Assembly (NCBI GenBank): GCA_003224085.1
Contig: QHYK01000064.1
Span: 1-64,000, forward strand
Source of the DNA: Acidobacteriota bacterium
GTDB lineage: Bacteria; Acidobacteriota; Terriglobia; Acidiferrales; UBA7541
Length of the DNA stretch: 64,000 nucleotides
Direction of reading: 5' to 3'
Below, piece by piece: positions 39,861 to 52,359 of the stretch; the first letter of the stretch is position 1, and each line of letters opens with the position of its first letter. The notes beneath the pieces were generated by a model. The model was given only the letters and a program-made list of their open reading frames with translations. It ran no database searches and was not told where the DNA came from. The position numbers were made by a program, and so were the translations under genes.

Positions 39861-42827
39861 ATGGAAGGACGCCGCGTCCGCTTTCTGCTCGTGATTCCCT
39901 TCTTATTTCTCATCCTTATGGCCCAAAAAGCACGCAGCCAAAACGACAATCCATCCGAGAAAAAATCCGTTGCGCAAAACAGCGGAGCCACGGCCAAGGG
40001 CAGCGCGAAGAATCTTTCGCCGGCGGCGAGCGCGTGGGTGGAATCCGCGCTGCGCAAAATGACCGTGGACGAAAAGATTGGCCAGCTCCTTTTCACCACG
40101 TATCACGGAAGTTTCACGTCCACCGATTCAGACGCCTATCAACAGCTTTTGCATGATGTGCAGGCTTTGCATGTCGGCGGATTTATCGTCATCACGCACG
40201 GTTCGCCGCTGGGAATCGTGAAGAGTCAGGCGTATCCGACGGCTCTGCTGGCCAATCAGTTACAGTCGAAATCCAAATTGCCGCTGCTCATTGGCGCGGA
40301 TTTCGAACGCGGAACCGCCATGCGCTACGACGAAGGAACGTCGTTTCCGACCGCCATGGCGGTCGCGGCCGGCGGCAATCCCAAAGACGCGTACACGATG
40401 GGAAAAATCACCGCTTTGGAGGCGCGCGCCACGGGCGTGCAATGGGTTTACGCGCCGGATTCGGACGTGAACAACAATCCCGGAAATCCCATCATAAACA
40501 CGCGCTCCTTCGGCGAGAATCCCTATCGCGTGGCGGAATTTGTTTCCGCGTTCGTAAAAGGCGTCGAGGACAACGGCGCGCTCGCGACGGCCAAGCATTT
40601 TCCCGGACATGGCGATACGGCCGCGGATTCACATATTGATTTGCCGGTGATCCCCGCAAATCGCGAGAGGTTGGAACATTTGGAACTGGTTCCCTTTCGC
40701 GCAGCGATCTCTGTGGGCGTGGACAGCATCATGACCGGGCATCTTTCCGTTCCGGCAATCGAACCCGACCCCAACACGCCTGCAACTTTGTCGCATAACA
40801 TTCTCACCGGTTTGTTGCGAAATGAACTCGGATATCGTGGGCTGATCGTCACGGATGCAATGGAGATGGGCGGCATTACCGTGCGTTACGCGCCCGGAGA
40901 AGCGGCCGTGCGTGCGGTGGCCGCCGGCGCGGATTGCGTGTTGATGCCGCCGGTGCCGGATGCGGCGTTCGAAGCTTTGCAAGCCGCGGTAAAGTCCGGG
41001 CGAATTTCGAAGGAGCGGCTGGATGAATCGGTGCGGCGCATTCTGGAGGTCAAAGCGCGGCTGGGGCTGAACAAAAATCGGCTGGTGGACGCGAACGCGC
41101 TGAATCACAAGTTCGGCAGCGCGGCCTGGCAAAAAGAAGCGCAGGAAATCTCCGATCGCGGCGTGACCCTGCTGCGCGACACGCCTCATCGTTTGCCGCT
41201 CGACGGAACGAAGCCATCGCGAGCGCTGCTGCTCTCATTCTATGCAGACCCCGAGCCGTATCCTGGAGAGGACCTTGAACGCGAATTGCGCGCGCGATTC
41301 GATTCGGTGACCACTCTTCGCGCGGACACAAGATTCGTGAATGCTAGCATCCTGAAGCTGCCGCCGCCCGATTCCTACGACCTCGCGATTCTCGCGCTGT
41401 TTGTGCGCGTGAGCGACCGTAAAGGAAACGTGGACCTACCGGCGGAACAAGCGGCGCTGGCGGAACAACTTTACAAAACGGGCAAGCCGGTGATTACGGT
41501 GGGATTGGGGAGTCCGTACCTGATTGAGAGATTTCCGCAGGCAGAGACGTGGCTCGCGGCGTTTGGCATCAGCGACGTCGCGCAAATTTCCGTGGGGCGA
41601 GCGCTTTTTGGGGAAATTCCCGTGCGCGGACACTTGCCGGTGACGGTGCCGGGCGCCAACTTGAAAGCAGGATTTGGCATCGAAGTGCCAGCCAATCCGA
41701 TGACGGTGCAGCCGATGGACGCGCGCGAAGATTCGCAATTGCGGCCAGCGTATGAAGTCATCGAGAAAGCCGTAAAGGACAAGGCGTTTCCCGGAGCGAC
41801 ACTCGCCGTAGGATTCCGAGGAAAAGTTGCGATTCACGCGTTCGGGAAACTGAGCTACGACGCGAAATCGCCGGCAGTCAAGCCGACTACGATGTACGAC
41901 ATCGCATCGCTAACGAAAGTCGTGGCGACGACACCGCTGGTGGCGAAATTGGTCGAAGGCGACTTCGCCGTGCCGCTGGATTTGGATGCGAAGATCGAGC
42001 GCTACTTACCGGAGTGGGCTAGGGGACCACAACCGGAATGGCGGCATCGCGTGACGGTGCGGCATTTGCTGACGCACACCTCGGGTTTGCCTCCGTTCAA
42101 GGAATACTGGCGCACCTCGAAGAGCAAGCAAGACACATTGAAACAAATTTTCGCGGAGCCGCTCGAATACGAACCGGGAATGAAGGAAGTGTATTCGGAC
42201 CTGGGAATTATTTTGATGGCGGAAATTATCGGGCGATTGACGGGAAAAAAGCTGGATGACTTAGCGAAGAGTTTTATTTTTTCGACGCTGGGAATGAAAG
42301 ACTCGATGTACCGGCCGCCGAAGAAACTTTGGCCGACGATCGCGCCGACAGAAATCGACAACCATTACCGGCACCGGCTGATCCAGGGCGAGGTGCACGA
42401 CGAAAATGCGTTTGCGATTGGCGGCGTGTCAGGACACGCGGGAGTGTTCAGTACCGCCCCCGACTTGGCCGCGTTTTGTCAGATGCTGTTGAACGGCGGC
42501 GTGTACGCGCATCAGCGAATTTTGCGGCGTGCGACGGTGGCGCAGTTCACTACGCCGCAGCAGCTTTCCGGGGGAACGCGCACGCTAGGCTGGGCCCTGG
42601 CGACACCGGGCGGATTGAGCGGACATTATTTTTCAGAGCATAGTTTCGGGCACACCGGGTTCACGGGGACTTCCATCTGGATCGATCCGGAGCGGCAACT
42701 GTTTGTCGTGTTCCTGACGAACCGCGTTCATCCGACGCGGGAGAATCAGAAGATTCAACAAGTGCGAAGGGACCTGCATGACGCGGTGATGCAGGCCCTC
42801 GGATTCGCGACTACCGCAGTGCACTGA
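39861..42827 (+). CDS. NagZ-type GH3 N-acetylglucosaminidase fused to AmiE-like serine hydrolase
   Basis: 988 residues, secreted (signal LLVIPFLFLILMAQKARS, about 9-26). The GH3 domain (about 50-620) has ADFERGTAMRYDEGTSFPTA, the His/Asp general acid-base dyad of NagZ in KHFPGHGDTAADSH (Lys244 onward) and the nucleophile Asp332 in VTDAMEMGGIT. The C-terminal domain (about 640-988) is a beta-lactamase-fold hydrolase with SxxK at Ser683-Lys686 (IASLTKVVAT), LTHTSGLPPF and YSDLGIILMAEIIG. In B. subtilis separate proteins NagZ and AmiE (an amidase of this fold) work beside NamZ. Here both are fused and namZ is the divergent neighbour. Cleavage of the MurNAc-peptide bond by the second domain is inferred from that parallel. 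Confidence 0.88.
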   Translation: MEGRRVRFLLVIPFLFLILMAQKARSQNDNPSEKKSVAQNSGATAKGSAKNLSPAASAWVESALRKMTVDEKIGQLLFTTYHGSFTSTDSDAYQQLLHDVQALHVGGFIVITHGSPLGIVKSQAYPTALLANQLQSKSKLPLLIGADFERGTAMRYDEGTSFPTAMAVAAGGNPKDAYTMGKITALEARATGVQWVYAPDSDVNNNPGNPIINTRSFGENPYRVAEFVSAFVKGVEDNGALATAKHFPGHGDTAADSHIDLPVIPANRERLEHLELVPFRAAISVGVDSIMTGHLSVPAIEPDPNTPATLSHNILTGLLRNELGYRGLIVTDAMEMGGITVRYAPGEAAVRAVAAGADCVLMPPVPDAAFEALQAAVKSGRISKERLDESVRRILEVKARLGLNKNRLVDANALNHKFGSAAWQKEAQEISDRGVTLLRDTPHRLPLDGTKPSRALLLSFYADPEPYPGEDLERELRARFDSVTTLRADTRFVNASILKLPPPDSYDLAILALFVRVSDRKGNVDLPAEQAALAEQLYKTGKPVITVGLGSPYLIERFPQAETWLAAFGISDVAQISVGRALFGEIPVRGHLPVTVPGANLKAGFGIEVPANPMTVQPMDAREDSQLRPAYEVIEKAVKDKAFPGATLAVGFRGKVAIHAFGKLSYDAKSPAVKPTTMYDIASLTKVVATTPLVAKLVEGDFAVPLDLDAKIERYLPEWARGPQPEWRHRVTVRHLLTHTSGLPPFKEYWRTSKSKQDTLKQIFAEPLEYEPGMKEVYSDLGIILMAEIIGRLTGKKLDDLAKSFIFSTLGMKDSMYRPPKKLWPTIAPTEIDNHYRHRLIQGEVHDENAFAIGGVSGHAGVFSTAPDLAAFCQMLLNGGVYAHQRILRRATVAQFTTPQQLSGGTRTLGWALATPGGLSGHYFSEHSFGHTGFTGTSIWIDPERQLFVVFLTNRVHPTRENQKIQQVRRDLHDAVMQALGFATTAVH

Positions 42828-43434: not shown

Positions 43435-43579
43435 TTAGGGCGTGGGGTGCTGACGTAAGGAAACGGAACGAATGGTTCGGATGAGAATGCCGCCCACGAG
43501 AATCGCCATCCAATTCTCAAGAGCTGCACTGACCAAATCGACTAGCCAAGCCGCGAGGTGGGCGAGGATGTGGCGTCAT
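43435..43579 (-). pseudogene. Remnant of a PadR-associated small membrane protein
   Basis: An ATG overlapping the padR stop (ATGA) opens MTPHPRPPRGLA and stops after 20 codons. The neighbouring frame continues with AAWLVDLVSAALENWMAILV, GGILIRTIRSVSLRQHP, stop. Together they resemble a PadR-linked membrane protein start (MxxHPRPPR...LLERF) followed by a single helix, joined by a frameshift and a large loss. The assignment rests on pattern memory and is weak. Confidence 0.3.
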
Positions 43580-43908
43580 GAGTGGCTCCTGAGAAGATCG
43601 AGACCTTCGGTCAGGCTCCGGAGGGCGCCATGCGTGCGATGGACTGCCGAAACTCCTTGCGTCGTAACGCGGAAGAAGCGCTTCGATCGACCACCTCGTT
43701 CCGGCGTCGGGTCCCCGGAGCGGGATTGCAGGTAACCTTTTGCTTCCAGACGATCAAGAGTGGTGTACATGGCACCGATCGAAACCTCTCGCTTGGTGCG
43801 GGCTTCCATCTCGCGCCGGACGGTAACGCCATAGGCTTCATCGCCCAGACGCAGAACCGCGAGAAGCACCATGTGCTCGAATTCGCCGAGGTAGCCGCGA
43901 TCCGCCAT
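43576..43908 (-). CDS. PadR family transcriptional regulator, third copy
   Basis: 110 residues: GYLGEFEHMVLLAVLRLGDE, AYGVTVRREMEARTKREVS, IGAMYTTLDRLEAKGYLQSR and a basic wing, ERGGRSKRFFRVTTQGVSAV. This is the subgroup of PadR that often precedes a small permease-prefix or ADOP gene; here the partner seems decayed. The longer frame to 44052 runs into the murU-like gene in another frame and is rejected. TATATT ends 9 nt before the ATG at 43908 and no Shine-Dalgarno is seen, so the mRNA may be leaderless. Confidence 0.88.
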   Translation of the reverse strand: MADRGYLGEFEHMVLLAVLRLGDEAYGVTVRREMEARTKREVSIGAMYTTLDRLEAKGYLQSRSGDPTPERGGRSKRFFRVTTQGVSAVHRTHGALRSLTEGLDLLRSHS

Positions 43909-43917
43909 TAGTCCTAC

Positions 43918-43944
43918 AATATAGAGGAAATTAGCCTGGGTCAA
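43918..43944 (-). promoter_or_regulatory. Promoter of the third padR gene
   Basis: Minus strand: TTGACC (43944-43939), 15 bp, TATATT (43923-43918). The -35 box overlaps the last codons of the murU-like gene. Confidence 0.45.
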
Positions 43945-44905
43945 GACAAAAGGCGCCTTGATGGAGGTCGCGGGAGGCTTGGGAGAGGTCGGAGGGGCGG
44001 CCGAGGTCGCGCCAGTAGTATTCGTCGGCGCGGAAGGCGAGGATTTTTTCACCCCGGGCGGCGAGCCGAAGACAAGCGTCGACGATGGAGAAGACGCCGG
44101 TCTCAGTGAGCATGGGAAGGAGGCGAGGGGAGATGATGTGGATGCCGGAGAAGGCGAGAGGAAGTGGCGAGTGGCGAGTAGCGAGCGGCGAGTGGGAAGA
44201 AGAAGATTCGGAATGTGAAGTGAGATTTCTCGCTTCGTTCGATATGACGGTGTTGCCTTTTGTTTCGAGAGGGGGTGAGACCGGGCCAGGATCTCTCACT
44301 TCGTTCGGGATGACAAAAGAGGGGATTTCCGCGGGCTCCGAGGCAGTGGGTGATGGATTGGGCGCCGCCGAAGTCGCAGGAGCATAGGCAGGCGTGCCTG
44401 TGCCACTGGCGCGGCCGACGAGTTGGAGTTGGTCGTTGAAGAGGAGCAGGCGGGAGGAGGCGCGGGATTGGACGGCAAGGGTGGCGAGGGCGTCGCGTTC
44501 GTTGTGGAATTGGAGCATGCGGTGAAAGTCGATGTTGCTGAGGACGTCGACGTTGTGGAGGAGGAAGGGCTCCGAGTGGCGAGTGGCGAGTGGCGAGTGG
44601 CGAGCATTTTCCAGGAAAAACCAGGAGGCTTTTTTCAGGCCGCCGCCGGTGTCGAGCAGAAGATCCTCTTCGCGGGAAATTTCGATGTGCATGCCGAAAT
44701 TGTTGCTGGATTTCAGGTAGTCGACGACCGCGTCCGCGAAGTGATGGACGTTGATGATGACTTCGTTGATACCAAAAGAGCGAAGGCGTGCGAGCGTGAT
44801 TTCGAGCAGCGTGCGGCCATTGATTTCGACGAGGGCTTTGGGACGTGTGTCGGTGAGCGGGCGCAGGCGCGTGCCGAGGCCGGCGGCGAGGATCATTGCC
44901 TTCAT
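43931..44905 (-). CDS. MurU-like sugar-1-phosphate nucleotidyltransferase, with repeat inserts
   Basis: 324 residues. The nucleotidyltransferase signature is MILAAGLGTRLRPLTDTRPK (residues 4-23), followed by ALVEINGRTLLEITLARLRS, INEVIINVHHFADAVVDYL, the lost-and-found PFLLHNVDVLSNIDFHRML and the C-terminal EYYWRDLGRPSDL, as in MurU (MurNAc-1-P uridylyltransferase). Paired with an AmgK-like kinase 40 bp upstream, it would make UDP-MurNAc from MurNAc. Two in-frame inserts are foreign: ARHSPLATRHSE at about residues 100-111, and roughly 80 residues in the middle (GTGTPAYAPATSAAP ... SFVIPNEVRDPGP ... NTVISNEARNL ... SHSPLATRHSPL) encoded by heptamer and REP-like repeats. Core strands appear intact, so activity is plausible but untested. 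Confidence 0.8.
   Translation of the reverse strand: MKAMILAAGLGTRLRPLTDTRPKALVEINGRTLLEITLARLRSFGINEVIINVHHFADAVVDYLKSSNNFGMHIEISREEDLLLDTGGGLKKASWFFLENARHSPLATRHSEPFLLHNVDVLSNIDFHRMLQFHNERDALATLAVQSRASSRLLLFNDQLQLVGRASGTGTPAYAPATSAAPNPSPTASEPAEIPSFVIPNEVRDPGPVSPPLETKGNTVISNEARNLTSHSESSSSHSPLATRHSPLPLAFSGIHIISPRLLPMLTETGVFSIVDACLRLAARGEKILAFRADEYYWRDLGRPSDLSQASRDLHQGAFCLDPG
44165..44199. repeat. TGGCGAG-type heptamer array inside the murU-like gene
   Basis: Five tandem units: TGGCGAG, TGGCGAG, TAGCGAG, CGGCGAG, TGGGAAG. Read on the coding (minus) strand they give the heptapeptide-like SPLATRHSPL. Confidence 0.85.
44221..44312. repeat. Two REP-like units inside the murU-like gene
   Basis: Coding-strand sequences GTCATATCGAACGAAGCGAG (about 44249-44230) and GTCATCCCGAACGAAGTGAG (about 44312-44293) are two copies of a widespread bacterial repeat. 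They encode VISNEARNL and VIPNEVRDP. Confidence 0.75.
44577..44604. repeat. Perfect TGGCGAG x4 inside the murU-like gene
   Basis: Four exact TGGCGAG units, coding for RHSPLATRHS on the minus strand, placed just before the PFLLHNVD strand. Confidence 0.9.
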
Positions 44906-44945: not shown

Positions 44946-46409
44946 TCATTTGGCGAGATTACCCACCACGGCGTGCAACATGCCCAGCTTTTCGAGTTCG
45001 AGGTGGCGGATGCCGACTTCAACGCCGCTGCGGCCGCGCAAATGTTTTGCGAGTTGTTCGGCGAGATAGACGGAGCGGTGCTGGCCGCCGGTGCAGCCGA
45101 AGCTCACCATTAGATTCTTGAAACCGCGGTGTTGAAAATTGTCGACGGTCGCGTCGATGAGAGTAAACACGCTGGCCAGATACTGGTGGACGCGCTCCTG
45201 CTGATTGAGGTAGTCGATGACCGGCGGGTCCTGGCCAGTAAGCGATTTGAAGCGCTCTTCCCTGCCGGGATTCGGGAGGCCGCGGCCGTCGAAGACAAAC
45301 CCGCCGCCGTTGCCGGCCTCGTCCTTGGGCAACTCGTGATGAAACGAAAAGCTGAAAATGCGGACAACGAGATTGTCGGCTTCGAAAGCGATGCTTTGGA
45401 GTTTTTCCGAAGCGAGCATGCTTTGAAACGCGCCGAGAAGCGTGGGCAGTGCGATGGGCAATTGCACGTTGTGGAGCAGCCAGCGGATGTTTTTCAGGGC
45501 GTAGGGGACGCTTTGCAGGAAATGCACTTTGCGTTCGAAAAAGCCGCGATAGCCGTAGGCGCCAAGTGCCTGCATGATGCGGACGTAAACGAAGCCGTAG
45601 TAGTAGCGCAGGAAGGCTTCGCGGTCGAGGTCGATGAAGGTCGAGAGCGCATTGAGATAGTGATCGAGAAGCCGCTGGCGAAGATCGGGCGGGAGGTCGG
45701 CCTTGGCGTCGAAGAGAAGCGAGGCGATGTCGTACTGCAAGGCGCCTTTGCGGCCGCCTTGATAGTCAACGAAATAGGGCAGGCCGCCGCGCAGCATGAT
45801 GTTGCGCGACTGAAAATCGCGATAGAGGAAATAATCGGGCGGGGCCCCAAGGAGGAAATCGGTGAGGCGGTCGAAATCGGTTTCCAGGGCGCGTTCGTTA
45901 AAGGGAATGCCGGCGAGCCTCAGAAAATAGTATTTGCAGTAGTTCAAGTCCCAGGTGATGGACTGCCGATCGAAGCTGGCAATGGGATAACAGAAGCTGT
46001 AGTCGAAGTCGCGCGCGGCTTCGACTTGGAAGCGCGGGAGGACGCCGACGGATTTGCGGTAGGCATCGACAACGGCGGGAGCGATATCGTCGCCGGAGCG
46101 ATTCCTGGAGAGAAATTCGAACAGCGAGGTGTCGCCGAGATCTTCCTCTAGATAGGCGCCATGGTCGAGGTCCTGGGCATAGATTTCCGGCACGGGCAGG
46201 AGGTGCCGGCGAAAATGTTTGGAGAACTCGAGGAAGGCGACGTTTTCTTCACGGCCGTTGTAGAGAACGCCGACCGCGCTCACGCGATCGTTGGCGAGGC
46301 GGATGATTTTTCGGCCGGAGCCGCCCAGTTCCCCTTGCAATGGCTGAATGTGCGTAGGAGCAGCGTGGAAGTGCTGTTGGAAAAGTTCTTTGAGAACGTC
46401 TAGGGACAT
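44946..46409 (-). CDS. AmgK-like sugar kinase fused to RapZ C-terminal domain
   Basis: 487 residues in two domains. The N-terminal part (1-300) is an aminoglycoside-phosphotransferase-fold kinase like AmgK (anomeric MurNAc/GlcNAc kinase), with the catalytic loop YFLYRDFQSRNIMLRGG and the metal-binding VDYQGGRKGALQYDIASLL. The C-terminal part (about 325-487) is the RapZ C-domain: IFSFSFHHELPKD, FVFDGRGLPNPG, LTGQDPPVIDYL and the hallmark VSFGCTGGQHRSVYLAEQLA. In E. coli this domain binds glucosamine-6-phosphate. The RapZ kinase domain with its P-loop is replaced. The start at 46409 follows GAAGGGAATCT. The next gene is the MurU-like partner, supporting a MurNAc-to-UDP-MurNAc route; regulation of the kinase by GlcN6P is an inference. 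Confidence 0.85.
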   Translation of the reverse strand: MSLDVLKELFQQHFHAAPTHIQPLQGELGGSGRKIIRLANDRVSAVGVLYNGREENVAFLEFSKHFRRHLLPVPEIYAQDLDHGAYLEEDLGDTSLFEFLSRNRSGDDIAPAVVDAYRKSVGVLPRFQVEAARDFDYSFCYPIASFDRQSITWDLNYCKYYFLRLAGIPFNERALETDFDRLTDFLLGAPPDYFLYRDFQSRNIMLRGGLPYFVDYQGGRKGALQYDIASLLFDAKADLPPDLRQRLLDHYLNALSTFIDLDREAFLRYYYGFVYVRIMQALGAYGYRGFFERKVHFLQSVPYALKNIRWLLHNVQLPIALPTLLGAFQSMLASEKLQSIAFEADNLVVRIFSFSFHHELPKDEAGNGGGFVFDGRGLPNPGREERFKSLTGQDPPVIDYLNQQERVHQYLASVFTLIDATVDNFQHRGFKNLMVSFGCTGGQHRSVYLAEQLAKHLRGRSGVEVGIRHLELEKLGMLHAVVGNLAK

Positions 46410-46557
46410 AGATTCCCTTCCACCTGTCCTGAGAGATGGATCCGGCCGGGTGGTCTTAGCATAGCCCATTCTGGAACAGGACGCCCGGCAAGCGGGAACG
46501 GTTGTGCCCAGAATTACAGATTCAGGGTTCAAGGCCAAGTATTTTGAGGCGCCTCGC

Positions 46558-46563
46558 TATAAT
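46558..46563 (+). promoter_or_regulatory. -10 box placed for a leaderless murQ transcript
   Basis: A perfect TATAAT ends 6 nt before the murQ ATG, so transcription should begin at or next to the start codon. No ribosome-binding site is present. Confidence 0.65.
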
Positions 46564-46569
46564 GTGAGC

Positions 46570-47487
46570 ATGCCCAAGTCCTTCAGAAGTTCTATTCCGA
46601 AAGAATCTCGACTGACCGAACAAAGGAACAAAGCTTCACGGAATCTCGACCGCATGACGGCGCGCGAGATTGTGGAGTTGATGAACCGCGAAGACCGCAA
46701 AGTGGCGGTTGCGGTGGGAAGGGAAATTCCAGCAATTGCTCGGGCGGTGGACGCGATTGTCGCGGGGATTCGCAAAGGCGGCCGGCTAATTTACGCGGGA
46801 GCTGGTTCGAGCGGACGCATGGCGGTGTTAGACGCGGCAGAGTGCCAGCCGACGTTTGGGACTCCGGCGAAGCTGGTTCAGGCGGTAATCGCGGGAGGAG
46901 AGCGCGCCATCACGCAGGCGGTGGAAGGCGCGGAAGACGACGTTCGCCATGCGGCGCGCGAATTGCGCAAGAGGAGGCTGACGCGGCACGACGTGGTGGT
47001 TGGAGTGACGGCGAGTGGGACGACGCCGTACGTGCTGGCGGCGCTGCGATACGCACGAGGGCGAGGGGCGACGACGGTAGCGATTACGTCAAACCGGAAA
47101 ATGCCGGTGGCGCGGGTGGCAAAAATTGTGATTGCGGTGGAAGTGGGGCCGGAGGTGTTGACAGGTTCGACGCGGATGAAAGCAGGGACGGCGCAAAAGA
47201 TGGTGCTGAACATGCTCAGTACAGCGTCGATGGCGCGGCTTGGACATGTGTATGAAAACCTGATGATTGATGTCGTGCAGACCAATGAAAAGGTTGCGAA
47301 ACGAGTTTTGCGGATTCTGGCGGAAGCGAGCGGGAAGAGTGTGTCTGCGGCGGAACACGCACTGCGGGCGGCGGGACACAATATGAGGGTGGCGCTGGTG
47401 ATGCTGAAGCTGGGAGTGGGGGCGCGGGAGGCGAAGAACAGACTGAAGGGGGCGGGAGGAGAATTGAGGCGCGCATTAAATGAGTAA
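46570..47487 (+). CDS. murQ: N-acetylmuramic acid 6-phosphate etherase MurQ
   Basis: 305 residues, close to the usual 300. MurQ cleaves the lactyl ether of MurNAc-6-P to give GlcNAc-6-P and D-lactate. It has the SIS-fold sugar-phosphate loops IYAGAGSSGRMAVLDAAECQ (about 76-95) and VGVTASGTTPYVLAALRYAR (about 140-159), TSNRKMPVARVAKIVIAVEV, STRMKAGTAQKMVLNMLSTA and the C-terminal helical AAGHNMRVALVMLKLGV. I start at the ATG at 46570, 6 nt after a TATAAT; an upstream in-frame GTG/ATG at 46504 would lie before the promoter. It is divergent from amgK-rapZ and followed by murA. Confidence 0.95.
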   Translation: MPKSFRSSIPKESRLTEQRNKASRNLDRMTAREIVELMNREDRKVAVAVGREIPAIARAVDAIVAGIRKGGRLIYAGAGSSGRMAVLDAAECQPTFGTPAKLVQAVIAGGERAITQAVEGAEDDVRHAARELRKRRLTRHDVVVGVTASGTTPYVLAALRYARGRGATTVAITSNRKMPVARVAKIVIAVEVGPEVLTGSTRMKAGTAQKMVLNMLSTASMARLGHVYENLMIDVVQTNEKVAKRVLRILAEASGKSVSAAEHALRAAGHNMRVALVMLKLGVGAREAKNRLKGAGGELRRALNE

Positions 47488-47636: not shown

Positions 47637-48932
47637 ATGGATAAGTTTTTAATAAAAGGCGGGAAGGCGCTGCGGGGGAGCGTCCCTGTAAGCGGGGCCA
47701 AGAATTCGGCCCTGCCGGTGATGGCGGCGGCCTTGTTGACTGCTGACAAGGTGGTCGTTCGAAACGTTCCCAAGGTGCGCGATCTGGTTACGATGAGCAA
47801 GCTACTGGCGTTCATGGACGCGAAGGTTTCGGCGGGGACAGTGCCGGCGAGCGACTATGAGATTCAAGCGCCGAGGTTGAATCATGCGGAAGCGCCTTAC
47901 GAGCTGGTGAAGACGATGCGCGCGTCGATCCTGACACTCGGGCCGCTGATGGCGCGTGTAGGTGTGGCGCGAGTTTCGTTGCCGGGAGGTTGCGCGATCG
48001 GGGCGCGGCCGGTGGATCTGCATTTGAAGGCGCTGGAGCAGATGGGCGCGGAGATTGCGACGTCACACGGGTACATCGACGCGAAAGTGCATCGCAACGG
48101 TTCGCGGGGGCGGCGGCTAAAGGGCGCGCACATCGTGTTTGAGAAAATCACCGTGACGGGGACGGAAAATATTTTGATGGCGGCGGCGCTGGCGGAAGGG
48201 GAGACGGTGCTGGAAAACGCGGCGCGCGAGCCGGAAGTGACCGACCTGATCTTGATGCTTCGGAAAATGGGGGCGGAAATTTGCGGAGACGGCACTTCGA
48301 CGCTTCGGATTCGCGGCGTGAAAGAGCTGCACGGCACGGAACATACCGTAATTCCGGACCGGATCGAAGCGGGAACGTTTCTCGTGGCGGGAGCAATGAC
48401 TGACGGCGATTTGACGATTACGAATTGCCAACCGAAGCATCTGGGGGCGGTGATTGCGAAGTTACAACAGGCTGGGGTGCAGATCGAGATATCGGATGCG
48501 ACGACGGTTCGCGCGCGGGGCGCGAAAAAGTTAGCGGCAGCGGACGTGACCACGGAGGAGTATCCGGGATTCGCGACGGACATGCAAGCGCAATACATGG
48601 CGCTGGCTACCCAAGCGGAAGGTACGTCGGTGATTACGGAAACGATTTTTGAGAACCGCTACCTGCATGCAAGCGAGATGGTGCGCATGGGGGCGAATAT
48701 TTCGGTGAACGGACGGGAAGCGATTGTGCGCGGTCCCGCGCAGTTATCAGGGACGACTGTGCAAGCATCGGACTTGCGCGCGAGTGCGGGCCTGGTTCTG
48801 GCGGGTTTAGTGGCAACCGGTGAGACGCTCATCGATCGCGTGTATCACATTGATCGCGGGTACGAAGGGATCGTCGAGAAGCTGCGCGGCGTTGGAGCAC
48901 AGATCGAGCGCGTGCACAGTCCCGGCTCGTAA
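47637..48932 (+). CDS. murA: UDP-N-acetylglucosamine 1-carboxyvinyltransferase MurA
   Basis: 431 residues; the first committed step of peptidoglycan synthesis, transferring enolpyruvate from PEP to UDP-GlcNAc. The N-terminal KGGKALRGSVPVSGAKNSAL contains the catalytic-site Lys/Asn. The fosfomycin-target cysteine is present in LPGGCAIGARPVDLHLKAL (about residue 120). RIEAGTFLVAGAMTDGDLTI and the C-terminal DLRASAGLVLAGLVATGETL follow. It lies 150 bp after murQ on the same strand, joining a recycling gene to a de novo gene that uses the same sugar pool. Confidence 0.96.
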   Translation: MDKFLIKGGKALRGSVPVSGAKNSALPVMAAALLTADKVVVRNVPKVRDLVTMSKLLAFMDAKVSAGTVPASDYEIQAPRLNHAEAPYELVKTMRASILTLGPLMARVGVARVSLPGGCAIGARPVDLHLKALEQMGAEIATSHGYIDAKVHRNGSRGRRLKGAHIVFEKITVTGTENILMAAALAEGETVLENAAREPEVTDLILMLRKMGAEICGDGTSTLRIRGVKELHGTEHTVIPDRIEAGTFLVAGAMTDGDLTITNCQPKHLGAVIAKLQQAGVQIEISDATTVRARGAKKLAAADVTTEEYPGFATDMQAQYMALATQAEGTSVITETIFENRYLHASEMVRMGANISVNGREAIVRGPAQLSGTTVQASDLRASAGLVLAGLVATGETLIDRVYHIDRGYEGIVEKLRGVGAQIERVHSPGS

Positions 48933-49017
48933 CTTTCTTCTAGCAGCAAATGCTCCTTAGTTTTGATACAATCTGCCGCACATTTTTGACATGCGCCTCC
49001 GGAATGAGGAGAGGGTC

Positions 49018-49692
49018 ATGGCTAAGACGGAATTGGTGAGAAAGCTGGACGCGGCAATTGCCGGCAAGAATTTGCTGAAGCATCCGTTCTATCAGGATTG
49101 GCAGGCAGGGAAGCTGAGCCGTGAGGCGCTGCAACTGTACGCGACACAGTATTACAAACATGTGTCAGCGTTTCCCGGGCACCTGCGCGTGCTGGCAGCG
49201 CGGACCGAAGGGCCGCTGCAGAAATTGATCCAGGAAAACCTGGGGGAGGAAGAGAATCCGGCGGCGCCGCATCCAAAATTGTGGCGCGATTTTGCGGCCG
49301 CTGTTGGCGTCAGCGAAGATGACGTTACCTGCTGCCCCGCCCTGCCGGGAACGAAGAATGTGGTGCAAACTTTCCGGGAAATCTGCGGGGATCGAACGGT
49401 GGCAGAGGCCGTAGCGACGCTGTACGCCTACGAATCGCAAGTGCCCGAGATTGCGGCGATAAAGATGGAGGGACTGGCCAAGTTTTATGGCGTGAACACG
49501 CCGAAAGGATTGGCGTACTTCGCGGTGCACGAGGAGACGGACAAGCTACACCGGGCGGCATGGCGTGATTGGCTTGAAAAGCACGCCGAGGGGGACGAGG
49601 AGGAGATCGTCAGAACAACGAACGCGGCACTCGACGCGCTGTGGGGGGCTCTGGATGCGGTACATTGTGAAAATGCCGGGGTAAGGAAGTAA
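49018..49692 (+). CDS. CADD family (TenA/PqqC-like) putative folate-metabolism protein
   Basis: 224 residues, helical oxygenase-like fold related to PqqC and TenA. The metal-binding residues expected for CADD are in place: Glu and His in ENLGEEENPAAPHPKLW (about 70-86), Glu in AYESQVPEIAAIKM (about 143) and the H-x3-D-x2-H set in VHEETDKLHRAAW (about 173-185). CADD of Chlamydia makes p-aminobenzoate from its own tyrosine by a self-sacrificing reaction. The conserved tyrosines near LQLYATQYYKHV are the corresponding region. GAGGAGAGGG before the ATG at 49018 sets the start. folE and PTPS genes lie 5 kb away. Confidence 0.85.
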   Translation: MAKTELVRKLDAAIAGKNLLKHPFYQDWQAGKLSREALQLYATQYYKHVSAFPGHLRVLAARTEGPLQKLIQENLGEEENPAAPHPKLWRDFAAAVGVSEDDVTCCPALPGTKNVVQTFREICGDRTVAEAVATLYAYESQVPEIAAIKMEGLAKFYGVNTPKGLAYFAVHEETDKLHRAAWRDWLEKHAEGDEEEIVRTTNAALDALWGALDAVHCENAGVRK

Positions 49693-49880: not shown

Positions 49881-52091
49881 TTACTCGCGGGAGCCGGAGT
49901 TGCCGGAGCCGCCTTCGCTCCCGGCAAACCCCGGATTGTGACTGCCACCTGCCGCGGCCTTTTGCTGTTTTTCACGCGCTTCCTTGAGCAGCGCTTTGCG
50001 CGAGAGGCGAATCTTGTTCCCTTCGATCGAGAGCACCTTCACCAGAACCTGGTCGCCGAGCTTCAATTCGTCGCGAACGTCGCGAATCCGATGCTCGGAG
50101 ATTTCGCTGATGTGCAGCAGGCCGTCGGTCCCCGGAAATAACTCGACGAAAGCGCCAAACTCCGCGAGGCGCACGACTTTGCCGAGATAGGTCTTGCCGA
50201 CTTCCGCGCTGGCGGTGACTTCGCGGACCATCGCGAGGGCGGCGTCGCCCGAAGCTCCGCTAGTCGAGAAGATGTGTACGGTGCCGTCTTCGAGGACGTC
50301 GATCTTGACGCCGGTCTGTTCGGTGATGGACTTGATTTTCTTTCCGCCCGGGCCAATGAGGTCGCGGATCTTGTCGGTCGGGATGTTGAGCTTGTAGAGG
50401 CGCGGCGCGTAAGCCGAAATCTGGGTGCGCGCGGCGTCAAGCGTCGCTTCCATGGTATCCAGAATCTCGAGGCGCGCTTTCTTCGCCTGTGCGAGCGCCT
50501 CGCGCATCATGGCAATACTGATGCCAAGGACCTTGATGTCCATTTGCAGCGCGGTGATGCCGTTGCGCGTGCCGGCGACTTTGAAGTCCATATCGCCGTA
50601 ATGATCTTCGGCGCCGGCAATGTCGGTGAGGATGGAATATTTGCCTTTGCCGCCAACGACGAGCCCCATGGCGATGCCCGCGCAAGAGGACTTGATGGGA
50701 ACGCCGGCATCCATCAGCGCGAGCGAGCCGCCGCAAACCGTGGCCATCGACGACGAGCCGTTGGATTCCATAATGTCGGAGACCAGGCGCATGGCGTAGG
50801 GGAAGTCCGATTCGGGAGGAAGCAGGTTCACGAGCGCGCGTTCGGCAAGAGCGCCGTGGCCGATTTCGCGGCGTCCGGGCCCGCGGAGGAATTTCACTTC
50901 ACCGACGCTGAATGGCGGGAAGTTGTAGTGCAGCATGAAGCGCTTGAACTGGTATTGCTCGAAGAGCAGGTCGAGGCGCTGCATGTCTTCCTTGGTGCCG
51001 AGAGTGAGCGTGGCGAGCGCTTGCGTTTCGCCGCGGGTGAAGAGCGCCGAGCCGTGAACGCGCGGGAGCAGGCCGACCTCGCAAGTAATTTTGCGAATCC
51101 GGTCGAAGGCTCGGCCATCGGGTCGGCGCCGGGCATTCAGGACGTCGTCGCGAAAAATATTTTCGCGCAGCCGTTCAAAAGCGCGCTTCGTGAGCGTGCG
51201 CTTCTCGTCCATTTCTTTCTGAGGTTCTTCGGGAATGGTGGCGAGGATTTCTTCCTTCAGGGCATCCACCAGGTGATAGCTTTCCTTTTTCGGGTGCTTT
51301 TCCGTGTTGAGCGCATCGTGCAACCGCTCGCCATACTTCTTTTGCAGATCTTTGTAGATACCTTCGTCGAATGGCAGCGGCTCGACCGCGACTTTCTTGG
51401 GATTAAGCTGGCCATGAAGCTGCCGAATGGCGGCCACAATTTTCTTGATTTGCGCGTGGCCAAATTCAAGAGCGTCGGCAACAGTCTCTTCAGAGACTTC
51501 CAGCGCGCCGGCTTCGACCATGACGATGGCTTCTTCCGTTCCGGCGATGACGATGTTCAGCAAGCTCTTCTTTTGCTGCGCAACGGTGGGATTGGCGATG
51601 AGCTGGCCATCCAGCAGACCTACGCGAACGCAGGCAATGGGCTTCTCAAACGGCAGGTCCGACACATAGCAGGCCGCCGACGCCCCGGTGACGGCGATGA
51701 CGTCCGGATCATTGTCGCTGTCGGCGGAGAGCACCATGCTGACAATCTGCGTTTCGTTGCGCCAGGCTTCGGGGAAGAGCGGACGAAGCGGGCGATCAAT
51801 CAACCGGGAAGTGAGAATCTCTTTTTCCGAAGGGCGCCCCTCGCGCTTGAAAAAGCCCCCGGGAATTTTTCCTGCGGAATAGGTATTTTCGCGATAGTCT
51901 ACGGTAAGAGGAAGAAAGTCTCGGTCATTGGCTTCGGTAGCCATGCAGGCCGTAGTGAGCACGACCGTGTCGCCATAGCGCGCCACAATCGCGCCATCGG
52001 CCTGTTTTGCGATTTTCCCCGTTTCCAGAGTCAGCGGACGGCCGCCGACCTCCACGGTAACCTGATGAGGTGCGTGTGCATTTTCAGACAT
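49881..52091 (-). CDS. pnp: Polyribonucleotide nucleotidyltransferase (PNPase)
   Basis: 736 residues, a 3'-5' phosphorolytic exoribonuclease of the RNA degradosome. It has two RNase PH-like domains (GRPLTLETGKIAKQADGAIV at the N-terminus; RPDGRAFDRIRKITCEVGLL starting the second) and the catalytic-core SDIMESNGSSSMATVCGGSL and EDHYGDMDFKVAGTRNGITA. The KH domain is IPTDKIRDLIGPGGKKIKSI (about 575-594), and the S1 domain is GKTYLGKVVRLAEFGAFVEL (about 640-659). The Gly/Ser-rich tail ends GGSGNSGSRE. The start at 52091 has AAAGGA upstream; the frame to 52163 has none. It follows rpsO, the classical order. Confidence 0.96.
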   Translation of the reverse strand: MSENAHAPHQVTVEVGGRPLTLETGKIAKQADGAIVARYGDTVVLTTACMATEANDRDFLPLTVDYRENTYSAGKIPGGFFKREGRPSEKEILTSRLIDRPLRPLFPEAWRNETQIVSMVLSADSDNDPDVIAVTGASAACYVSDLPFEKPIACVRVGLLDGQLIANPTVAQQKKSLLNIVIAGTEEAIVMVEAGALEVSEETVADALEFGHAQIKKIVAAIRQLHGQLNPKKVAVEPLPFDEGIYKDLQKKYGERLHDALNTEKHPKKESYHLVDALKEEILATIPEEPQKEMDEKRTLTKRAFERLRENIFRDDVLNARRRPDGRAFDRIRKITCEVGLLPRVHGSALFTRGETQALATLTLGTKEDMQRLDLLFEQYQFKRFMLHYNFPPFSVGEVKFLRGPGRREIGHGALAERALVNLLPPESDFPYAMRLVSDIMESNGSSSMATVCGGSLALMDAGVPIKSSCAGIAMGLVVGGKGKYSILTDIAGAEDHYGDMDFKVAGTRNGITALQMDIKVLGISIAMMREALAQAKKARLEILDTMEATLDAARTQISAYAPRLYKLNIPTDKIRDLIGPGGKKIKSITEQTGVKIDVLEDGTVHIFSTSGASGDAALAMVREVTASAEVGKTYLGKVVRLAEFGAFVELFPGTDGLLHISEISEHRIRDVRDELKLGDQVLVKVLSIEGNKIRLSRKALLKEAREKQQKAAAGGSHNPGFAGSEGGSGNSGSRE

Positions 52092-52359
52092 AAACAATTT
52101 TCCTTTGGCCCCGGCCCCCCGGGGGAGTTGAGGGCCCTTCGCATGGCGAAGGACCTCATACAAGGCTGCCCGTTTTTGCGGACAACTTCGAGGAAGAAAG
52201 AAGGAGGAGCTTGCGGGGAACGGACCCGGGACAGACTACACCACGAGAAATTCCAGCCCTATCGCTGCCGGAGGCCTGAGGGACAGACTCCGCGTGGAAT
52301 TTGTCACTTCGTGAGAACGCAAGGTGTATCGCTCAGAATTCCGACTCAAAGTGGAGCGA

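Follow-up and report, generated by a model that had tools for sequence, protein, structure and literature searches.

The window (by which we mean the whole 64,000-nucleotide stretch of the acidobacterial contig analyzed here) contains a gene in which an AmgK-like kinase domain is joined to the C-terminal domain of RapZ (RapZ-C). Its ATG at 46409 and the TGA ending at 44946 delimit exactly one gene, for which the initial annotation gave no strand; the coding strand is the minus strand, and on the plus strand the frame of the same interval is interrupted by stops. The fusion proposed in that annotation is borne out by a single frame of 487 aa, which carries Pfam matches to both APH and PF22740 and whose structural model matches both 3csv and RapZ. 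The gene, its domains and motifs, and the salvage genes around it are collected in Table 1.

Table 1. Genes, domains and motifs of the fused locus, with positions in the window
Feature	Positions	Strand	Basis or state
GH3 (NagZ-type) and beta-lactamase-fold fused protein	39861..42827	+	Glyco_hydro_3 286.5 bits, Beta-lactamase 213.3 bits
MurU-like sugar-1-phosphate nucleotidyltransferase, next gene, same direction as the fusion	43931..44905	-	NTP_transferase; best NCBIfam family MurU
Fused gene, AmgK-like kinase and RapZ C-terminal domain, 487 aa	44946..46409	-	Open frame, translation, Pfam APH and PF22740
RapZ C-terminal domain, residues 347-474	44988..45371	-	PF22740, pLDDT 90.0, match to 5o5s
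Phosphate loop CTGGQHRS (CX5R-S), residues 439-446	45072..45095	-	Position 443 alone varies
N380-P381-G382-R383, Gly in place of E. coli His190	45261..45272	-	Gly in 85/85 Terriglobia and 4/4 Bacteroidota fusions
Insertion G366-N367-G368, fusion-specific	45306..45314	-	85/85 Terriglobia and 4/4 Bacteroidota fusions
Kinase domain, APH fold, residues 1-335	45405..46409	-	Pfam APH, phmmer match to 3csv, structure match
Motif DYQGG, residues 215-219	45753..45767	-	Unchanged in 85/85 Terriglobia fusions
Catalytic loop RDFQSRN, residues 197-203	45801..45821	-	Unchanged in 85/85 Terriglobia fusions
MurQ, MurNAc-6-phosphate etherase, divergent neighbor	46504..47487	+	TIGR00274 362.9 bits, cut-off 302
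MurA	47637..48932	+	TIGR01072 559 bits, cut-off 392.7

The architecture is readable from Pfam, which places APH at residues 55-259 (40.5 bits, cut-off 23.2) and PF22740, the RapZ C-terminal domain, at residues 348-472 (116.1 bits, cut-off 27). In phmmer comparisons with the PDB, residues 19-327 matched the APH-fold protein 3csv (E 9e-16), and the C-terminal part matched E. coli RapZ (best E 8.7e-20). The N-terminal P-loop domain of RapZ is absent from the Pfam matches and the APH kinase occupies its place, in agreement with the replacement described in the initial annotation. The two motifs named there, RDFxSRN and GCTGGQHRS, are likewise present, the latter as GCTGGQHRSV at residues 438-447, of which 438 and 443 vary among 85 Terriglobia fusions. 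Stand-alone kinase relatives have DFQDA- or DFQGG-type motifs at the position of DYQGG, whose Asp presumably binds metal, by analogy with APH kinases. Structure prediction of both domains, which the initial annotation had suggested as a check, gave a confident APH fold and a confident RapZ-C fold: AlphaFold models built from alignments of 77 and 75 rows, the window's protein included, reached a mean pLDDT of 85.8 for the full-length protein and 90.0 for RapZ-C. Residues 1-342 of the former superimpose on 3csv with Z 28.5 (rmsd 2.9, 309 residues) and residues 343-475 on E. coli RapZ with Z about 20 (rmsd 1.4-1.7, 123-127 residues), while the separate RapZ-C model matches E. coli RapZ-CTD 5o5s with Z 19.4 (rmsd 1.5, 123 residues). 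Thus, the APH fold and the kinase catalytic residues are both present by Pfam, motifs and structural match. By curated NCBIfam cut-offs the protein is neither AmgK nor RapZ: AmgK is the sole kinase family named for it, at 47.5 bits against an equivalog cut-off of 500 and 41.1 against 550, and RapZ scores 107.5 bits against 244. We therefore call it an AmgK-like kinase with a RapZ-C domain.

The product of the adjoining MurU-like gene has MurU as its best NCBIfam family with 116.4 bits (cut-off 250), and the corresponding partners of two relatives score 127.1 and 129.2 bits on the same model, again as their best family; by the curated cut-off the window's partner is not MurU proper. In the best 80 of 208 relatives, a MurU-like gene follows the fusion in the same direction in all 80 loci (in one, L101, it is cut by the contig end), at a median distance of -4 nt, a stop/start overlap, and at 50 nt or less in 60 of them. 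This linkage, together with the MurQ, MurA and GH3/beta-lactamase genes of the window, upholds the peptidoglycan-salvage setting that had been assigned to the locus. Among the 79 loci in which the fusion ORF could be read (from the best 80 of 208), where many flanks end at contig ends, MurQ-type genes lie near the fusion in 18, MurA in 17, GH3/beta-lactamase genes in 16 and all three in 13, one member of each of these neighbor clusters having been identified by Pfam. The window holds all three, and the true start of its MurQ probably lies further in. Its genome also encodes AnmK, which makes MurNAc-6-P (344.5 bits), and a separate canonical RapZ with the motifs LPNPH and CTGGKHRSV. The presence of AnmK, MurQ and the kinase and MurU-like genes implies both branches from MurNAc-6-P, one to GlcNAc-6-P by MurQ and the other by the kinase/MurU route, which elsewhere is described as needing MupP first (PMC5371407). 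From context, the fused kinase and its partner may work like the AmgK-MurU pair, and synteny and weak profile matches point to MurNAc or GlcNAc as the likely kinase substrate.

Some further features of the region may be recorded. Compared with relatives such as L015, the window's MurU-like gene has an in-frame insertion with short repeats (44165-44591, minus strand) that includes CACTCGCCA units, one more CACTCGCCA lying between the MurU-like and fused genes (44931); CGAACGAAGYGAGARATC occurs in it twice, at 44224-44241 and 44290-44307, against 0.04 occurrences expected. In a different frame, an ORF for a PadR-type regulator (43576-44052, minus strand) runs into the end of the MurU-like gene; the regulator probably starts at an internal codon beyond the MurU-like stop. 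Beyond murA lie a CADD-family gene (48991-49692, plus strand; TIGR04305 over its cut-off) and a gene that by eye is PNPase-like (49881-52163, minus strand); the corresponding clusters are found near the fusion in 10 and 12 of the 79 loci, respectively.

The full-length fusion was recovered from six of 297 Acidobacteria genomes searched, all six within the window's class, of which 33 members were listed, the window's genome included; in the rest of the phylum the best matches covered just one of the two parts, either kinase or RapZ. RapZ-C was detected in 82 of 99 sampled genomes, three of which, that of the window again among them, carry the fusion as a second copy. Among bacterial genome contigs, 208 relatives were confirmed; the best 80, which were kept, are all titled as Acidobacteria or Terriglobia groups, save L072. 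This contig, titled Betaproteobacteria (BOG genome mining), bears a Terriglobia-type fusion (76% identical) and is probably a mislabeled or mixed bin. A plasmid collection yielded four Bacteroidota records with the fusion, from Phocaeicola, Parabacteroides, Bacteroides and Prevotella (97% of the length, 38-43% identity); Pfam recognizes APH and RapZ-C in the two examined, from Parabacteroides and Prevotella. The fused copy is the one RapZ-C copy in each of the four records, and in three a MurU-like gene lies behind it, Prevotella being the exception. The two annotated fusions among the four (L121 and L124) are both labeled 'RNase adapter RapZ', probably a misannotation carried by the RapZ-C domain. 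Three of the 'plasmids' (L121, L123 and L124) carry such genes as those for glutamate dehydrogenase, for glycolytic enzymes or, judged by eye, for methionine synthase and look like chromosomal pieces.

An assembly artefact or chance juxtaposition is ruled out since the same architecture recurs in 80 contigs of other assemblies and in another phylum, and the full-length Bacteroidota relatives from the plasmid collection equally rule out an invention confined to Acidobacteria. The counts over 85 Terriglobia fusions cover the six from the genome search (the window's included) and 79 from the best 80 of 208 relatives; a motif filter left out L114, whose loop reads CTAGRHRS. Seventeen of the 85 and the four from Bacteroidota entered each of two midpoint-rooted trees. 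The 21 fusions split from 24 stand-alone kinases in the kinase-domain tree (45 rows, support 98/97, some stand-alone rows on long branches) and from 30 canonical RapZ in the RapZ-C tree (51 rows, support 100/100). Both trees fit one old fusion and group the Terriglobia and Bacteroidota fusions together, so the two domains have apparently evolved jointly. The sisters of the fusion clade in the kinase-domain tree are the stand-alone kinases L017 and L018, and no RapZ-C match was obtained in any of the four sampled genomes of their family (G016, G030, G043 and G068). The genes of these two kinases overlap one that by eye resembles a SpoIID/LytB protein.

The loop C-T-G-G-x-H-R-S-V is kept in the 85 Terriglobia and four Bacteroidota fusions and, save for the position of residue 443, is likewise unchanged in 30 canonical acidobacterial RapZ; D374, R376, N380, P381, G392 and H469 are invariant throughout these three sets. 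The pocket of E. coli RapZ is described as H190, T248, G249, H252 and R253, with C247 adjoining (PMC9841335). Four of these five residues are kept in the fusions and H190 is not: its position holds Gly in every fusion counted, and the next residue is Arg or Lys in 88 of the 89, whereas 29 of 30 canonical acidobacterial RapZ have His (16), Tyr (11) or Phe (2). Close by is the fusion-specific Gly-Asn/His-Gly insertion, which aligns with a gap in 30/30 canonical RapZ. Because of the constant glycine in all 89 fusions and the insertion beside it, the ligand of the fused domain probably differs from GlcN6P; with Gly instead of a bulky aromatic residue beside the phosphate site, a larger one may fit.

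Our tentative preference is for an AmgK-type kinase whose RapZ pocket binds some amino-sugar phosphate and sets the activity of the kinase. Judging by sequence and synteny, the kinase would phosphorylate an amino sugar at C1, giving most likely MurNAc-1-P, which the MurU-like product of the next gene would take over and convert to the UDP-sugar. RapZ-C is, by homology and predicted fold, a phosphate-binding pocket carried in cis, whose occupation by an amino-sugar phosphate could set kinase activity and hence the choice between shunt recycling and MurQ breakdown. The constant glycine suggests a ligand bulkier than GlcN6P, such as MurNAc-6-P or GlcNAc-6-P. Against this sensor stand the invariant Cys and the CX5R form of the loop, which fit catalysis at least as well, and the Prevotella copy with no MurU-like gene beside it. 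A role of the fused protein as an RNase adapter is unlikely because it lacks the N-terminal half of RapZ, which in E. coli is reported to be needed for efficient cleavage by RNase E (PMC5737377).

The sensor is ranked slightly ahead of a second possibility, to which we give somewhat less credence, that RapZ-C is a cysteine-dependent phosphatase. It would convert MurNAc-6-P to MurNAc, which the kinase would re-phosphorylate at C1, so that the steps of MupP and AmgK would be joined in one protein between AnmK and MurU. The loop C439-T-G-G-Q-H-R445-S446 has the CX5R-S form in 89/89 fusions counted, and the Cys, Thr, His, Arg and Ser of the loop share their invariance with D374, R376, N380 and H469 across the 85 and 4 fusions and the 30 canonical proteins; with such a loop, RapZ-C may be an enzyme and not a feedback sensor. 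Khan and Gorke liken the E. coli pocket to the loop of cysteine-dependent tyrosine phosphatases and raise the possibility that RapZ hydrolyses GlcN6P (PMC7199280). E. coli RapZ C247S is reported to be inactive, and the GlcN6P density in the crystal is described as 'chemically transformed' (PMC9841335). The RapZ homolog YvcJ is stated to exhibit 'NTPase and phosphatase activities' (PMC7525490), though the activity may sit in its other domain, and HpaP of Xanthomonas, cited beside RapZ homologs, is said to have ATPase and phosphatase activity. AnmK, present in the window's genome, would supply the substrate, and the loss of the bulky H190 could leave room for the larger sugar. On the other side, E. 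coli RapZ functions as a sensor, binding GlcN6P with a KD of 186 nM, and Tannerella forsythia is reported to salvage MurNAc by AmgK/MurU with no AnmK predicted in that account (PMC7670621).

Our own comparisons agree weakly with the phosphatase-loop likeness. A profile of all RapZ-C aligned with dual-specificity phosphatases (DSP) with the loops in register at 30% probability over 51 columns, compared with 0.2% for a kinase control; the probability was 24% for canonical RapZ and 6% for the fusions alone, and the matches were 2-6% with low-molecular-weight (LMW) PTP against 0.05-0.2% with the kinase control. The register of the loops is partly by construction since the phosphatase rows were picked with a pattern for their own motif, which 18/30 LMW and 23/30 DSP loci passed. 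In fold the RapZ-C model resembles DUSP10 (Z 4.2 and 4.1, 87 residues, rmsd 3.5-3.6) and Tk-PTP (Z 4.0, 86 residues, rmsd 3.8) weakly and is closer to phosphofructokinase (Z 6.2); the fold comparison gave no proof of a phosphatase. Five of nine HAD_2 places in the window's genome were scanned, and the four with NCBIfam matches included no clear MupP, the best HAD protein scoring 107.7 of the 359 bits required and being better classed as a phosphoglycolate phosphatase. The MupP cut-off was reached by 0/297 Acidobacteria genomes but also by 0/14 controls, and since the controls fail likewise we dropped the absence of MupP as proof of its replacement. Were the protein both a MurNAc-6-P phosphatase and a MurNAc 1-kinase, it would close the MupP step, and RapZ would then be either the descendant of a sugar phosphatase turned sensor or still such an enzyme, a scenario we regard as less likely than not.

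Less probable again is a different substrate for the kinase and the partner enzyme, e.g. a sugar of a surface glycan in place of MurNAc or GlcNAc. The scores lie far below the AmgK and MurU cut-offs (47.5/500 and 116-129/250 bits), so the sugar could be another, and APH-fold kinases are diverse. However, MurU is the best-scoring family of the partner, AmgK is the sole kinase family reported, and MurQ, MurA and GH3/beta-lactamase genes cluster with the fusion in a subset of loci.

The initial annotation had GlcN6P as the ligand of RapZ-C, tuning the kinase by feedback, and this fares only in part: four of the five named pocket residues are retained, as is the adjoining Cys, while the H190 position and its surroundings have changed. 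E. coli RapZ binds GlcN6P with a reported KD of 186 nM and shows no response with GlcN or Glc6P (PMC7073468). Its function is reported to be abolished by H190A as well as by G249W, R253A, C247A and C247S (PMC9841335), and the residue essential there is Gly in 89/89 fusions counted, with the loop beside it altered by the three-residue insertion. The residue is no absolute marker of GlcN6P because canonical RapZ varies at it (H, Y, F). On balance we consider GlcN6P itself an improbable ligand. That RapZ-C mainly dimerizes or positions the kinase, e.g. for channeling to the MurU-like enzyme, with an inherited and unimportant pocket, is highly improbable because the pocket is invariant in 89 fusions from two phyla, even though E. 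coli RapZ-CTD is reported to dimerize through its YVFD strand (PMC5737377) and the fusions keep the matching (F/Y)(V/I)FD.

Comparison with known systems helps to delimit the family. With AmgK it shares the APH fold, the RDF/Y...N loop, the MurU-like partner gene and the salvage setting, but it adds a RapZ-C domain of about 125 residues and scores low on the AmgK model. The fold of the C-terminal domain and the CTGGxHRSV loop are common to it and RapZ/YvcJ, from which it differs by the missing N-terminal P-loop NTPase domain, the glycine that replaces the aromatic residue corresponding to E. coli position 190 and the GNG insertion. Under the phosphatase alternative it would catalyze the same step as MupP, which is described as a HAD-type enzyme (PMC5371407) and is unrelated to RapZ-C. 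The cysteine-dependent phosphatases (DUSP, low-molecular-weight PTP) likewise have a CX5R-S loop that connects a strand to a helix, but their overall fold similarity to RapZ-C amounts to Z about 4. NahK, the N-acetylhexosamine 1-kinase, has the APH fold too (Z 19.8) and phosphorylates an amino sugar at C1, but it is 12-13% identical and has no RapZ domain. AmgK and MurU of T. forsythia are reported to be a working pair in E. coli (PMC13041923). By analogy with its family member Parabacteroides, T. forsythia AmgK may itself have the fusion architecture, in which case kinase activity of the family has already been shown.

In the open-licence literature we found no paper on the kinase-RapZ-C architecture; a genome paper lists COG1660 and COG3178 apart. 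The fusion combines in a new way a kinase type and a pocket domain that are each known, and it is present in two phyla and partly mislabeled. RapZ has established roles as an RNA adapter and a sensor of GlcN6P; in the fusion its C-terminal domain is attached to a metabolic kinase and the RapZ N-terminal half is missing. The hosts include soil Terriglobia and gut Bacteroidota such as Parabacteroides and Bacteroides, and the architecture suggests that Bacteroidota proteins of this build labeled 'RNase adapter RapZ' are salvage kinases. For the chemistry of the RapZ pocket, where the E. coli authors raised hydrolysis (PMC7199280), the fusion offers a one-protein system in which sensing versus catalysis can be decided. 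The protein that returns the sugar to cell-wall synthesis may also be where the cell detects or processes a sugar phosphate.
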